Source of the DNA: Rhodopirellula bahusiensis
GTDB lineage: Bacteria; Planctomycetota; Planctomycetia; Pirellulales; Pirellulaceae
Length of the DNA stretch: 64,000 bases
Assembly: GCF_002727185.1 (NCBI RefSeq)
Contig: NZ_NIZW01000002.1
Coordinates: forward strand, 62,001-126,000
Direction of reading: 5' to 3'
Part shown: piece by piece, positions 3,244 through 7,287 of the stretch
Numbering within the stretch: position 1 is the first letter of the stretch
Layout of the letters: every line of letters begins with the position of its first letter
Program-made: the position numbers and the translations under genes
The notes under the pieces: model-generated
Database searches by the model: none
The model's input: the letters and a program-made list of their open reading frames with translations, nothing else
Told to the model about the DNA's origin: nothing

Positions 3244-3344
3244 TGAATGGACTATTGATCTGAACGGATGCATCGCCCATCGCGTTAATGCATTCGCTTT
3301 GTTCAGAGGAATGTCGTGCAAAGCGACGCGGATCGAATGAATGC

Positions 3345-3378
3345 AAACGGGCTGGTGGAAATCACCAGCCCGTTTTTG
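3345..3378 (+). terminator. Rho-independent terminator after htrA
   Basis: A perfect 13-bp stem, AAACGGGCTGGTG at 3345-3357 and CACCAGCCCGTTT at 3363-3375, with a 5-base GAAAT loop and a run of T on the plus strand. It lies about 100 bases after the protease stop and just before the next gene. Confidence 0.9.
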
Positions 3379-3436
3379 TTTATACTTCGCCTCATATCGC
3401 ATTCTTCCGGCATCCAATCCATCAGCAGCTTTGCTC

Positions 3437-4315
3437 ATGTCCAACGCGCCTCATTCGCCTTACACCCAACCCGTCCCCAACTCGCCTTCGAGTGGTGGTT
3501 CTTCGAAGAACACGGTCATCATCGTCGCGATCGTTTCGGTGACGATGCTGTTGATGTGCGGAGGTGTTTTGGGGCTCGGGTACTACGCGGTCGAACGGCT
3601 CGCGAAAGAAATCAATGCGGTCAACTATGACTACATGATCGATGACGAAGAAACCCCCGAGGCGTTGATGTTCGCGTTGTCTGAGAATGACACCCTTCGC
3701 GAGGAAGTCGGCGTAATTGAATCGATCGAATTCGCTGAAGAGCACAACGCTGACAATGCGATCTATGCCGAGAATTATTTTTATCGCGTGATCGGAACCG
3801 ATGGAGAGGCCGTCATCCGTGCCGAACTCAGTGAGAAAGAAGACGTTTGGTTCAATCGCGTCGATTGGATTCCAGACGAAACAGATTTGTACGCTCGGGT
3901 GGAGTTGGAAACCATCCCGGTGCCGTTCGACTCGACCATGGCGCACTCCACCTATCGTTTGCTGAAAGACAACGAAACGATCCAAGACAAAGTCGGAACG
4001 ATCAACTATGTCGGCTACGAATGGGAAATGACCGACGAATACACCGATGCGGAAGCGGCCAGCTATGTCTTCGTCGTTCGTGGCGACGCTGGTGAAACGA
4101 ACGTCCGAGTCATGTTCAACGATTACGACTACGTGACGGTCGAGCGAATTGAACTGATGGAGGATCCGGAGAACCCAGTGCTTCTGTTCGGCGAACCGGA
4201 GGTAGGTTTGGAGATGGAGAAATCCGAGCCGTCGCCAATCAATCAAGATCTAGCTGAATCAGAAGCTGAGGTTGCTGACCCAGACAGTTCGGAAAATACC
4301 GAAGCCGGTGAGTGA
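3437..4315 (+). CDS. Single-pass membrane protein with two Coa1-like repeats
   Basis: 292 residues from the ATG at 3437; an in-frame ATG at 3341 lies inside the terminator and is rejected. A Pro/Ser-rich head is followed by one transmembrane helix (about residues 27-50, VIIVAIVSVTMLLMCGGVLG). Two similar units follow: residues 74-145 (ALSENDTLREEVGVIESIEF) and 170-240 (YRLLKDNETIQDKVGTINYV). This pattern resembles the Coa1/Tim21-like fold of cytochrome-oxidase assembly factors, but sequence alone does not prove the family. The C-terminus is acidic. Role unknown; no oxidase gene is nearby. Confidence 0.7.
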   Translation: MSNAPHSPYTQPVPNSPSSGGSSKNTVIIVAIVSVTMLLMCGGVLGLGYYAVERLAKEINAVNYDYMIDDEETPEALMFALSENDTLREEVGVIESIEFAEEHNADNAIYAENYFYRVIGTDGEAVIRAELSEKEDVWFNRVDWIPDETDLYARVELETIPVPFDSTMAHSTYRLLKDNETIQDKVGTINYVGYEWEMTDEYTDAEAASYVFVVRGDAGETNVRVMFNDYDYVTVERIELMEDPENPVLLFGEPEVGLEMEKSEPSPINQDLAESEAEVADPDSSENTEAGE

Positions 4316-4374
4316 CACACCGTTGGCTTTCAAGGGGGGCTGTTTTCTTTGTGAGTCTGGTGTGGATTGGTTTT

Positions 4375-4492
4375 GCCACAGAGATCACCGAGTCCACAGA
4401 GATGGCGTTCGAGGCAGCGCGTCGGACCGGAACTACCACTCGCATCCCTCTGTGCACTCTGTGCACTCTGTGCACTCTGTGATCTCTGTGGC
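4375..4492. repeat. CTCTGTG-type inverted-repeat element, copy 1
   Basis: Begins TTTTGCCACAGAGATCACCG and ends with the near-complement CTCTGTGATCTCTGTGGCG plus AAAA, so the ends can pair for about 30 bases. The right arm carries extra 9-base units (CTCTGTGCA three times). The middle (about 45 bases, ATGGCGTTCGAGGCAGCGCG onward) is shared with four other copies in this region. Short open frames reading through it are products of the heptamer repeat and not genes. Confidence 0.9.
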
Positions 4493-4553
4493 GAAAACTC
4501 AATCACGACTCAGTGAGAGTGTTTGTCTCTTCCGTCCGCCGGCGTTGCGATGG

Positions 4554-4750
4554 CTAGAGCGAAAGACGTTTGATTCCGTCCACCAAACGGGACTGGCCGA
4601 AGTTGATTGCATCGACGTCTTTCTGACGCTCGCAAGCCAAGTATCGCAGGCTGAGTTCGTGACAAAACGTTTCTTCGTCGATCGTCGCCAGCAACCCGGA
4701 GCACGATCAATTGCCACACCAATGATCGTCTCTGTTATTTCATCGCTCAT
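4554..4750 (-). pseudogene. Truncated GxxExxY gene, copy 1
   Basis: Matches both ends of the intact gene at 5641-6006 but lacks about 157 central bases (roughly codons 53-104) and has a further small deletion near codon 15-20 that shifts frame. The PD-(D/E)XK core (Asp65, Glu75, Lys77 of the intact protein) is gone. The start ATG at 4750 and a TAG at 4554 remain recognisable. The same two deletions occur in copies 2 and 3, so they predate the tandem duplication. Confidence 0.88.
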
Positions 4751-4757
4751 TGGTTTT

Positions 4758-4857
4758 GCCACAGAGGGCACAGAGTCCACAGAGATGGCGTTCGAGGCAG
4801 CGCGTCGGACCGGAACAACCACGCGCATCCCTCTGTGCTTTCTGTGATCTCTGTGGC
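4758..4857. repeat. CTCTGTG-type inverted-repeat element, copy 2
   Basis: GCCACAGAGGGCACAGAGTC at the left pairs with TCTGTGATCTCTGTGGC at the right; the conserved 45-base middle is present. It sits between truncated copies 1 and 2. Confidence 0.9.
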
Positions 4858-4918
4858 TAAAACTCAATCCTGACTCAGTGAGAGTGTTTGTCTCTTCCGT
4901 CTGCCGGCGTTGCGATGG

Positions 4919-5115
4919 CTGGAACGAAAAACGTTTGATTCCGTCCACCAAACGGGACTGGCCGAAGTTGATTGCATCGACGTCTTTCTGACGCTCGCAA
5001 GCCAAGCATCGCAGGCTGAGTTCGTGACAAAACGTTTCTTCGTCGATCGTCGCCAGCAACCCGGAGCACGATCAATTGCCACACCAATGATCGTCTCTGT
5101 TATTTCATCGCTCAT
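4919..5115 (-). pseudogene. Truncated GxxExxY gene, copy 2
   Basis: Same structure as copy 1, 365 bases further on: start ATG at 5115, shared central deletion and N-terminal small deletion. The ancestral TAG stop has become CAG on the minus strand, so the frame no longer ends at the original point. Confidence 0.88.
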
Positions 5116-5122
5116 TGGTTTT

Positions 5123-5222
5123 GCCACAGAGGGCACAGAGTCCACAGAGATGGCGTTCGAGGCAGCGTTTCGGACCGGAACAACCACGCGCATCCCTCTG
5201 TGCTTTCTGTGATCTCTGTGGC
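5123..5222. repeat. CTCTGTG-type inverted-repeat element, copy 3
   Basis: Nearly identical to copy 2 over its full length, including the terminal GCCACAGAG and CTCTGTGGC arms. It separates truncated copies 2 and 3. Confidence 0.9.
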
Positions 5223-5283
5223 TAAAACTCAATCACGACTCAGTGAGAGTGTTTGTCTCTTCCGTCCGCCGGCGTTGCGATGG

Positions 5284-5480
5284 CTAGAACGACAGACGTT
5301 TGATTCCGTCCACCAAACGGGACTGACTGAAGTTGATTGCATCGACGTCTTTCTGACGCTCGCAAGCCAAGTATCGTAGGCTGAGTTCGTGACAAAACGT
5401 TTCTTCGTCGATCGTCGCCAGCAACCCGGAGCACGATCAATTGCCACACCAATGATCGTCTCTGTTAGTTCATCGCTCAT
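5284..5480 (-). pseudogene. Truncated GxxExxY gene, copy 3
   Basis: Start ATG at 5480 and TAG at 5284 retained; same central and N-terminal deletions as copies 1 and 2, plus a few private substitutions (for example GACTGACTGAAG for GACTGGCCGAAG on the plus strand). No nuclease core remains. Confidence 0.88.
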
Positions 5481-5487
5481 TGGTTTT

Positions 5488-5578
5488 GCCACCGAGTCCA
5501 CAGAGATGGCGATCGAGGCAGCGCGTCGGACCGGAACTACCACGCGCATCCCTCTGTGGACTCTGTGATCTCTGTGGC
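5488..5578. repeat. CTCTGTG-type inverted-repeat element, copy 4
   Basis: Shorter left arm (GCCACCGAGTCCACAGAG, one heptamer missing) with the full right arm CTCTGTGATCTCTGTGGC. It lies just downstream of the intact GxxExxY gene in that gene's own orientation. Confidence 0.88.
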
Positions 5579-5640
5579 TAAAACTCAATCACGACTGAGA
5601 GAGAGTGATTCGTTCCTTCCGTCCGCCGGCGTTGCGATGG

Positions 5641-6006
5641 CTAGAGCGAAAGACGTTTGATTCCGTCCACCAAACGGGACTGGCCGAAGTTGATCAGAAG
5701 GGCTCGCTTCAGACCGGTTGCTCTCAGGTAAGAAAGCGTTTGGGCCGTTGCCACATCGGGCAATTTCTTCACTGCTTTCAGCTCCAGGACAACTTGCCCG
5801 TCGACCAGGATGTCTAGCTTCTGTCCTTTGATCGTTCTCCCTTTGTAAATCACATCGACGTCTTTTTGACGCTCGCATGCCAAGCCTCTCAGGCTGAGTT
5901 CGTGACAAAGGGCTTCTTCGTAGATCGACTCCAGCAACCCGGGACCGAGAATGCGGTGCACCTCAATTGCCGCACCGATGATCTTTTCTGTCAGTTCATC
6001 GCTCAT
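5641..6006 (-). CDS. GxxExxY family protein (PD-(D/E)XK nuclease-like)
   Basis: 121 residues, the usual size of the GxxExxY family (TIGR04256). The signature is G23-LL-E26-SI-Y29. A putative nuclease core follows: Asp65 in KLDILVDG and Glu75-x-Lys77 in VLELKAVK. The gene ends LINFGQSRLVDGIKRLSL. It is the only intact copy next to three deleted copies, and it is bracketed by inverted-repeat elements at 5488-5578 and 6071-6153. The biological role of this family is not established. The link with flanking palindromes suggests it moves or duplicates with them, which is inference. Confidence 0.92.
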   Translation of the reverse strand: MSDELTEKIIGAAIEVHRILGPGLLESIYEEALCHELSLRGLACERQKDVDVIYKGRTIKGQKLDILVDGQVVLELKAVKKLPDVATAQTLSYLRATGLKRALLINFGQSRLVDGIKRLSL

Positions 6007-6070
6007 TGCTTGATACCCTCCGAGATCCGCTTGCCTGCTTGTGGTTGCAAGAGCCTAGCGAAATTATTTT

Positions 6071-6153
6071 GTCACAGAGTTCACAGAGATGGTGTTCGAG
6101 GCAGCGCGTCGGACCGGAACAACCACGCGCATCCCCTCTGTGATCTCTGTGGC
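6071..6153. repeat. CTCTGTG-type inverted-repeat element, copy 5
   Basis: GTCACAGAGTTCACAGAG pairs with CTCTGTGATCTCTGTGGC; the conserved middle is present. It lies upstream of the intact GxxExxY gene and about 50 bases from the end of the alanine dehydrogenase gene. Confidence 0.88.
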
Positions 6154-6201
6154 AAAAAACTCTTCGAGCGAAGAGCTGAAACAGCCAACAAGACCGAAGG
6201 C

Positions 6202-7287
6202 TCAGCCTTGGTAGGCGTTGGAGACGGCTTCGTGGACGATTTTTCCTGCGTGGATGTTGATCGCGGATTGCAGAGGGCCGGTGTCTTGGATGACACCGTC
6301 GATTCCCGAAGCAGCGACTTTCATCACCCAACGCATCGTGGCGTTGCACAACGCAAACGTGCTGGTCCGGCCGACTGCTCCGGGCATGTTCGCCACGCAG
6401 TAGTGGACGACCTCATCGATGATGTAGGTCGGTTCGCTGTGTGTGGTCGGACGGCTGGTTTCGATGCAGCCGCCTTGGTCAACCGCGACGTCGATCACGA
6501 CCGCACCCGACTTCATGGTGCGAAGGTCTTCGGCACGCACCAAATTGGGAGCTCGGGCCCCAGGGATCAACACGGAACCGATCACCAAGTCGGCTCGTTC
6601 GAGTTGTTCGACGATGTTATGGCGATCGCTGTAGAGCGTGTTCACGTTGGCGGGCATCACGTCGTCGAGGTATCGCAAACGATCGAGGTTGACATCTAAA
6701 ATCGCGACGTCGGCTTGGAAGCCGGCTGCGATTTTGGCCGCGTTGGCTCCCACCACACCGCCGCCCAGAATGGTGATGTGAGCGGGCGCGACACCGGGCA
6801 CTCCGCCCAACAAAATGCCGCGTCCCATTTGAGGCCGTTCGAGAAACTTCGCTCCTTCTTGGATGCTCATCCGGCCTGCCACTTCACTCATGGGGGTCAG
6901 CAGAGGAAGCTGCCCCGATGCATCGCGAAGCGTTTCGTAGGCGAGGCAGGTCGCACCGCTATCGAGCATCGCTTTGGTGAGTGAATCGTCGGCGGCGAAG
7001 TGAAAGTAGGTGAACACCATTTGGCCAGACCGAATGAGCTCGTATTCTGACGGCTGGGGCTCTTTGACTTTGATGACCAAGTCCGCTCGCGCGAAAATGT
7101 CTTCGGCGGAGGCAACCAATTCGGCTCCGGCACGGAGGTAATCATGGTCGGGCAGTCCCGATCCCAAACCGGCCCCGGCTTGCACCAAAACGGTGTGACC
7201 GGCTTGCGTGAGTTCCGCGACCCCGACGGGCAGCATGCCAACACGGTATTCGTCGGTCTTAATCTCCGAGGGCACGCCAACAATCAT
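6202..7287 (-). CDS. ald: Alanine dehydrogenase
   Basis: NAD-dependent interconversion of L-alanine and pyruvate plus ammonia, cytoplasmic. The 361-residue protein starts MIVGVPSEIKTDEYRVGMLP, the classic opening of the family. It carries the substrate Lys in VIKVKEP, the conserved His in TYFHFAADD, the Rossmann motif ITILGGGVVGANAAKIA and the IDVAVDQGGC signature. Length is slightly under the usual 370. The gene ends next to the GxxExxY array. The gene immediately upstream on the same strand stops only 4 bases before this ATG, so the two may be co-transcribed. Confidence 0.95.
   Translation of the reverse strand: MIVGVPSEIKTDEYRVGMLPVGVAELTQAGHTVLVQAGAGLGSGLPDHDYLRAGAELVASAEDIFARADLVIKVKEPQPSEYELIRSGQMVFTYFHFAADDSLTKAMLDSGATCLAYETLRDASGQLPLLTPMSEVAGRMSIQEGAKFLERPQMGRGILLGGVPGVAPAHITILGGGVVGANAAKIAAGFQADVAILDVNLDRLRYLDDVMPANVNTLYSDRHNIVEQLERADLVIGSVLIPGARAPNLVRAEDLRTMKSGAVVIDVAVDQGGCIETSRPTTHSEPTYIIDEVVHYCVANMPGAVGRTSTFALCNATMRWVMKVAASGIDGVIQDTGPLQSAINIHAGKIVHEAVSNAYQG

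Follow-up and report, generated by a model that had tools for sequence, protein, structure and literature searches.

What is a small nuclease gene doing amid a series of palindromes, and do the palindromes belong to it? The question is raised by a locus at 4366–6162 of a 64,000-nucleotide stretch of the Rhodopirellula bahusiensis genome (the whole stretch is called the window here), in which a gene of the GxxExxY family and core-deleted copies of it alternate with hairpins. The pairing of palindrome and gene is general and not specific to the window. The same unit recurs in other genomes, its two arms are alike in variant and geometry, the repeated heptamer tracks the protein, and homology can be limited to the unit within unrelated flanks. 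We give a probability of about one half to the reading that this is a selfish, horizontally spread unit, a nuclease gene between cognate inverted arrays that would move by array-targeted recombination. It is apparently an undescribed kind of selfish, movable gene. The open-licence full-text literature yielded no paper linking GxxExxY with repeats, though a description outside it is possible, and no function for GxxExxY genes was described in the open-licence literature searched. A passage in one paper (PMC8934634) reports a GxxExxY domain adjoining a reverse transcriptase, at a position apparently called as cas4 by another program.

The locus in the window

The order along the locus is hairpin-unit-hairpin-unit-hairpin-unit-hairpin-intact gene-hairpin. 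The first-pass annotation had described one intact gene and three deleted tandem copies alternating with five palindromes, every gene copy lying between two of them, and both descriptions hold.

4371–4496, no strand: hairpin 1, inverted CACAGAG-type heptamer arrays (DNA fold z −6.5)
4497–4753, minus strand: core-deleted GxxExxY copy, unit 1 (sequence comparison with the gene region)
4754–4861, no strand: hairpin 2 (DNA fold z −6.3)
4862–5118, minus strand: core-deleted GxxExxY copy, unit 2
5119–5226, no strand: hairpin 3 (palindrome only)
5227–5483, minus strand: core-deleted GxxExxY copy, unit 3
5484–5582, no strand: hairpin 4 (DNA fold z −4.9)
5641–6006, minus strand: intact GxxExxY gene, PD-(D/E)XK, Cas4/RecB-like, 121 amino acids (profiles, fold search)
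6067–6157, no strand: hairpin 5 (DNA fold z −6.6)
6202–7287, minus strand: flanking 361-residue gene, synteny anchor, which we take to be alanine dehydrogenase (ald)
3341–4315, plus strand: flanking gene on the opposite side, 324 residues, synteny anchor

Folding with DNA parameters, against 200 shuffles each, covered hairpins 1, 2, 4 and 5 (z −4.9 to −6.6). The arms are CACAGAG-type heptamers in tandem, with a 9-bp period and 2-nt spacers, inverted over a loop that is 46 nt long in most of the hairpins. All three-heptamer arrays of the window are at this locus. An Rfam search of the locus returned a single sub-threshold match (E 0.16).

The three tandem units are spaced exactly 365 bp apart and are 97% identical across 300 nt. 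Two shared deletions had been proposed for them; the larger stands, and comparison with the gene region gives three missing stretches in all. The largest, of ~157 bp (5694–5852), covers the codons of residues ~52–104 and removes the invariant D65, E75 and K77 plus the nearly invariant Q89. The others are of 14 bp (5940–5953) and ~57 bp (6009–6065, 5′ of the start codon). At the last joint, by eye, ATTG is common to the gene start (CTCATTG) and the left flank (GGATTGG). This overlap looks like a microhomology joint, the pattern expected for a tandem-duplication junction. Judged from the sequence, the 365-bp units are local tandem duplications. The idea that they had spread as 365-bp units is not borne out, as they form one array with exact spacing and a microhomology-like joint; next to the other CTCTGTG hairpins that were fetched no such dispersed remnant turned up, the unit DNA not having been searched for genome-wide.

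The protein matches TIGR04256 at 139.4 bits (curated cut-off 35; E 6.1e−41). Pfam finds PF13366 (PDDEXK_3) alone (E 1.5e−39), and no HUH/Y1 transposase domain as in the repetitive extragenic palindromic (REP)-associated tyrosine transposases (RAYTs). It belongs to the PD-(D/E)XK nucleases by the PF13366 match, the invariant D65, E75 and K77, and a fold search. For the latter, an AlphaFold2 model from a 75-row alignment (pLDDT 93.3, pTM 0.85) had Cas4 SSO0001 as its best match (probability 1.00, TMq 0.60), with further matches to LHK-Exo, AdnAB, MGME1 and lambda exonuclease, none of them at E < 0.001. A sequence search against solved structures gave no match up to E 10. By its predicted model, the GxxExxY protein is a minimal nuclease of the Cas4/RecB-type fold. 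It is like the Cas4, RecB and lambda-exonuclease nucleases in this fold match and in its conserved residues E, D, ExK and QxxxY. PADLOC profiles for Cas4 matched two of the three GxxExxY proteins tested, weakly (E 0.019–0.039). Cas4 nucleases carry an iron-sulphur cysteine cluster. The GxxExxY protein differs from them in being only ~120 residues long and in that the cysteines of such a cluster are not among its invariant columns, and with no clear profile E-value we do not class it as Cas4. Some GxxExxY matches lie within very long open frames, of up to 1062 residues (e.g., G013:C7:20120; labels of this kind are our own handles for genomes, contigs and loci).

Arrays around GxxExxY genes

A genome-contig search gave at least 577 confirmed relatives in many bacterial phyla and a few archaeal records, and of 392 genomes sampled from the window's phylum, 185 carry GxxExxY genes. 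Among viral contigs, a pattern scan turned up 3 relatives; tblastn with one family member had no match in 50,697 phage records and 8 matches in 72,556 plasmid records. Our first set was the best 80 of the at least 577 relatives, including two archaeal records, and 67 of them had 500 bp on either side. An array was scored where at least two CRCNRAG heptamers faced outward with starts 8–12 apart. Of the 67 loci, 49 had such an array upstream and 52 had one downstream; 40 had arrays on both sides, while inward-facing arrays stood on both sides in 7. Outward arrays on both sides were found at 8/1377 random positions in the same loci and in 0/670 dinucleotide shuffles. A motif-free inverted-repeat score of at least 16 was reached by 32/67 loci, against 20/400 mismatched pairs and 0/236 random positions.

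The second set, drawn from 67 genomes of the window's phylum, comprised 68 loci, of which 65 were usable (L321 was short of flank, and L270 and L290 were cut by contig ends). Outward arrays lay on both sides in 45/65, or in 44/63 after removal of L267 and L284, which duplicate L150 and L170 of the first set. The inverted-repeat score reached 16 in 49/65 loci, compared with 77/1000 mismatched pairs and 0/65 shuffled downstream flanks. Pooled, with near-copies at 90% identity removed, the sets gave 125 full-flank loci, with arrays on both sides in 80, on either side in 106, inward arrays on both sides in 10, and a score of at least 16 in 78. Both sets consist of the best-scoring family members, and weaker members may differ. 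The co-occurrence of palindromes and gene that the first-pass annotation had proposed to check is therefore seen in the pooled loci, and in the first set it is far above random. The contrary outcome, palindromes scattered genome-wide with no enrichment beside the gene, was not what we found: they are genome-wide, yet strongly enriched beside it.

Genes other than GxxExxY rarely lie between arrays. Across 80 loci there are 56 adjacent outward pairs of arrays with at least three heptamers; GxxExxY is inside 29, a gene-less stretch shorter than 220 bp inside 25, and something else inside 2. As these loci were selected for GxxExxY, it is the rarity of other enclosed genes alone that is informative. 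One of those two exceptions is in an Acidobacteria metagenome-assembled genome (L142, 686–1217), where a second CGCAGAG array pair just upstream of the GxxExxY gene holds a 154-residue open reading frame with PDIE...EAK motifs and no Pfam match.

The arms follow a tight plan. In the pooled non-redundant loci, 148 of the 184 arrays with three or more heptamers have exactly three, and heptamer starts are 8–10 apart in 375/407 intervals. The base before the outermost heptamer is C in 149/184 and the one further out is A in 155/184. The terminus reads TT[C/A]AC at both ends, with little conserved outside it (97 loci). The median distance from the matched coding stretch is 36 bp for the arm before it and 19 bp for the arm after it. 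The consensus heptamer is identical in both arms at 36/44 loci, against 14% expected. Over 70 loci, mirrored spacers have the same length in 95.7% of cases (36.8% permuted, 0/1000 as high) and mirrored heptamers are the same in 61.9% (15.0% permuted, 0/1000). The bases of mirrored spacers match in 53%, compared with 41% permuted (11/1000 as high; 74 loci), and in 23 hairpins of the window's genus they pair less than permuted, a hint only as these copies are non-independent. Arms are thus matched in word and geometry, and hardly in spacer letters.

The word also follows the protein. On a tree of 85 proteins, with 28 loci of the window's genus as candidates, the heptamer can be placed with 36 changes, compared with 53.8 when shuffled (0/500 as low); many forks of this tree have weak support, and the labels of L002, L003, L054 and L065 were set by eye. 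With those four labels and near-copies omitted, 114 non-redundant proteins labelled by rule need 53 changes against 71.5 (0/300 as low), and heptamer positions 2, 4, 5 and 7 are each clustered (0/300). The proteins have diverged to 42–60% identity with the window protein. These trees show that gene and arms descended together while the proteins diverged, which falls short of proving recognition.

Orthologous sites and dispersed hairpins

Evidence bearing on mobility comes from genus g223, where matches of at least 150 bp were listed. L268, L276 and L282 are 88–91% identical across 420–451 bp, arm-gene-arm, within unrelated flanks. L275 is 91–93% identical to L268 and L282 along a 360-bp gene stretch and 84% to L276 over 461 bp, and L267 matches L272/L280 at 82.6% over 426 bp only. 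The L276 unit lies between two co-directional genes, and eight other genomes match both flanks of this site. In G407 the flanking genes abut with 5 bp between them and the unit is absent. In G406 the arms and gene ends are present and the inside is masked. G404 (94% left flank), G408, G409, G411, G334 and G357 have other sequences, mostly short repeats. The gap is a hot spot for repeats, and the families found in it (L339–L346) vary by species, for example GGAGTCC-type hairpins and AGTGCCTAA-type arrays.

The setting is operon-like. Gaps to the neighbouring genes are short (medians 27.5 and 34.5 nt), and in the set of 91 non-redundant two-armed loci, the neighbours on both sides run along the gene in 48/64 and against it in 2/64. 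Loci without both arms show the same bias (20/28 along, 2/28 against), so that it belongs to the gene and not to the arms. In Empedobacter stercoris (L182, 3700–4600), an arm-gene-arm unit lies between two co-directional genes, presumably carA and carB.

In the window genome (G000) we count four full GxxExxY genes plus a remnant, each between inverted arrays whose word, by eye, differs by locus.

C1:69k: CACGAAG
C7:30k: CRCTAAT
C29:11.7k: CGCGGAG
C18:5.9k (remnant): CACGAAG-like
Window locus: CACAGAG

Besides the window units, core-less copies that keep both gene ends occur at C18 and next to the C29 gene, and gene-end fragments are found in L379, L380, L381 and L385. Gene-less hairpins occur across the whole genome; a search with CTCTGTGNNCTCTGTG at up to one mismatch gave 80 matches, against 0 for the reversed control.

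We compared 13 genomes of the genus, all with the GxxExxY family. Orthologous sites differ in presence and absence, and gene-less or core-deleted hairpins stand at the same sites. At the ald locus the intergenic stretch was read in five relatives (five more align solely in the ald gene): G003 has the flanks of the window with one hairpin and no gene, the hairpin of G002 has decayed, and G006, G012 and G004 have none. At C28:70k there is one solo hairpin in G000 and three gene-less hairpins in G002, while G012 has four gene-less hairpins plus one with a GxxExxY gene in its loop. The C1:69k gene is present in G000, G012 and G006, cut off in G002 by sequence resembling a transposase gene (by eye), and missing in G003, where the joint falls within a repeated arm. 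Core-deleted and gene-less forms thus exist, in the window and at C29, C18 and C28:70k. Empty sites with discrete differences, which had been taken as the sign of mobility, are there too; hairpin decay and shared positions accompany them, so that gradual decay is part of the picture and not the whole of it. These sites are compatible with gain of the gene at a hairpin as well as with its loss between arms. A homing-type pattern, gene in a hairpin loop at one site and gene-less in two relatives, is fitted equally by loss, and the gene-less G003 hairpins at two further sites fit loss as well as gain. We had considered the C1:69k element mobile from its sharp left homology edge and dropped this, the right flank being orthologous in G012; it is one resident locus with rearrangements. 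For four words counted across the 13 genomes, array number tracks the cognate gene (p 1e−5, with genome relatedness not corrected).

Some hairpins ride inside other repeats. The dispersed ~198-bp repeat of G000 (L247–L262; 86–99% identity) has 18 sites by pattern, and the fetched stretches contain 17 copies. It includes a hairpin of ATTAG type, and its ends resemble GCCTTTTTATACCCCACATC by eye. The 180-bp repeat of G409 has GTAACTATTCA-type ends and contains a CGCAAAG heptamer hairpin, and of its eight copies, five show 8-bp duplications that are clear by eye; target-site duplication, a mark of insertion sequences (IS), was found solely in this hairpin-containing repeat. Hairpins within both repeats suggest that insertion sequences may move hairpins. 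Dispersed hairpins as proof of arm-driven transposition were accordingly dropped, given the IS-type ends and 8-bp duplications in G409 and the 198-bp repeat in G000. Several of the 198-bp copies adjoin GGC...GCC palindromes.

A proposed recombining unit and its alternatives

The unit as we read it is a minimal, putatively Cas4/RecB-type nuclease gene in two inverted arrays, typically of three heptamers each, of the form T[C/A]AC-CRCNRAG-n(1-4)-CRCNRAG-n(1-4)-CRCNRAG. The nuclease or a partner would recognise the arrays and cut at or near them; arm recombination would then copy the gene into array sites, homing-like and without target duplication, and recombination between arms could delete the gene and leave the hairpin. 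A break-and-recombination model fits because there is no target duplication, the gene sits in a loop, and hairpins are retained. The operon orientation hints that the gene relies on read-through transcription. The unit at the window locus grew by tandem duplication, with a core-deleted copy multiplied. Put forward more tentatively is the wider claim of a new and very widespread class of selfish element, whose sole protein is a minimal Cas4/RecB-like nuclease, whose 3+3 heptamer arrays co-evolve with it in variant and geometry, which enters operons co-directionally, with no target duplication, through homing into arrays or recombination with them, and which leaves behind gene-less palindromes that populate genomes.

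Several observations weigh against this reading. No CRCNRAG array stands on either side in 19/125 pooled loci, and the three-heptamer rule holds on both sides in only 10/28 loci of the window's genus; some arrays are still visible by eye in the latter, and several motif-failing loci bear related words (e.g., CACGGAT, CGCGGAT, CATGAAG, ACAGATT). That the protein binds or cuts the arrays is something we infer from sequence. No target duplication appeared in 97 loci, the best k-mer excess being 5% over mismatched loci, which leaves the insertion chemistry unproven. Solo hairpins of G409 (L368–L377) include copies, up to 98% identical, of the 180-bp repeat, which is like a miniature inverted-repeat transposable element (MITE), and 34/41 ATTAG matches in G000 belong to the 198-bp repeat. 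Without gene-adjacent matches and that repeat, the link to gene count is modest (p 0.0066, kinship uncorrected; lowest single-word p 0.037). Hairpins or single arms at C2:656k and C16:161k are common to G002 or G003, and the C8:317k hairpin position is shared with relatives by BLAST coordinates, so that much of the hairpin set was inherited in place. Finally, tblastn near the other CTCTGTG hairpins fetched from G000 found no GxxExxY remnant of window type, the single exception of any kind being a CACGAAG-type remnant ~1 kb from one. With no detectable remnants in them, the origin of these solo hairpins by gene loss is not demonstrated. The proposal that the nuclease mobilises the palindromes is likewise unsupported, since relatives share the hairpins read at two other sites and those dispersed recently lie within MITE-like repeats, one family of which has IS-type ends.

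The alternative that survives best, although we think it unlikely, is a true transposon, with the arrays as terminal inverted repeats, GxxExxY as transposase (alone or with a host partner), insertion at short intergenic sites and the gene-less hairpins as its MITEs. The symmetric TT[C/A]AC termini, the unit-limited homology within unrelated flanks, and the core-deleted and gene-less derivatives are all in keeping with it. The 97 loci without target duplication are not, and gene-less orthologous sites often retain the hairpin; to our knowledge, PD-(D/E)XK enzymes do not serve as sole transposases.

It is also doubtful, and in our estimate ranks next, that the gene is passive cargo, inert on arrays and hairpins spread by unrelated insertion sequences and recombination. 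On such an account arm variant and geometry should not follow the gene across phyla, other genes should not be rare between arrays, and gene-bearing units should not lack the duplications seen around the G409 repeat. Its strength lies in that repeat with its GTAACTATTCA-type ends, in the G000 hairpins inside the 198-bp repeat, and in hairpin positions shared within the window's genus. Least probable is a role in RNA or transcription, in which the arms fold the transcript to insulate or process the gene in a host operon and the nuclease function is unrelated: the co-directional setting with short gaps, the strong stems predicted with DNA parameters and the mirrored spacer lengths that hold the stem in register agree with it, and the genome-wide gene-less hairpins, the poor pairing of spacer bases (53% vs 41%, and below permuted in the 23 non-independent genus hairpins) and the orientation bias that is independent of arms do not.

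The proposed recombining unit resembles several known systems. REP/REPIN sequences pair with RAYT proteins, which are HUH tyrosine transposases. The likeness lies in short dispersed palindromes (80 vs 0 matches) with paired, inverted arms, one protein gene between them, gene-bearing and gene-less forms, and one word per protein subfamily. Unlike a RAYT, the window-type protein is a PD-(D/E)XK nuclease, and unlike REPs the arms are tandem arrays of three heptamers, not a tagged hairpin, with the gene in the palindrome loop. Insertion sequences with MITE derivatives share the inverted ends, the single gene and the internally deleted and gene-less derivatives; they differ in target duplication (none in our 97 loci), in a recognised transposase and in ends that are not heptamer arrays. 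Homing endonuclease genes include PD-(D/E)XK examples. Like them, GxxExxY is a small nuclease gene standing on its own, which divides a putative recognition site into halves, and gene-less sites keep the putative site; unlike theirs, the putative targets are palindromic arrays at many places in the genome.

If pairing means recognition, it would give a function to an orphan nuclease family and account for one class of palindromic repeat seen in environmental genomes. The nuclease-site pairs (CACGAAG, CACAGAG, CGCAAAG, CRCTAAT and others) would also form a natural series for reading DNA specificity. The system would be REP/RAYT-like, built on an unrelated enzyme.

Two further features of the window genome involve repeats. 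At L036 1–6400 (C1 start) and L040 4200–10000 (C4:285k), repeats of 130–150 bp are spaced 400–1000 bp apart, some adjoining CACAGAG arms; from the spacing, our guess is an integron attC cassette array. Contig ends in L038, L043 and L049 also carry hairpin arrays or near-identical repeats, which look as if they broke the assembly.

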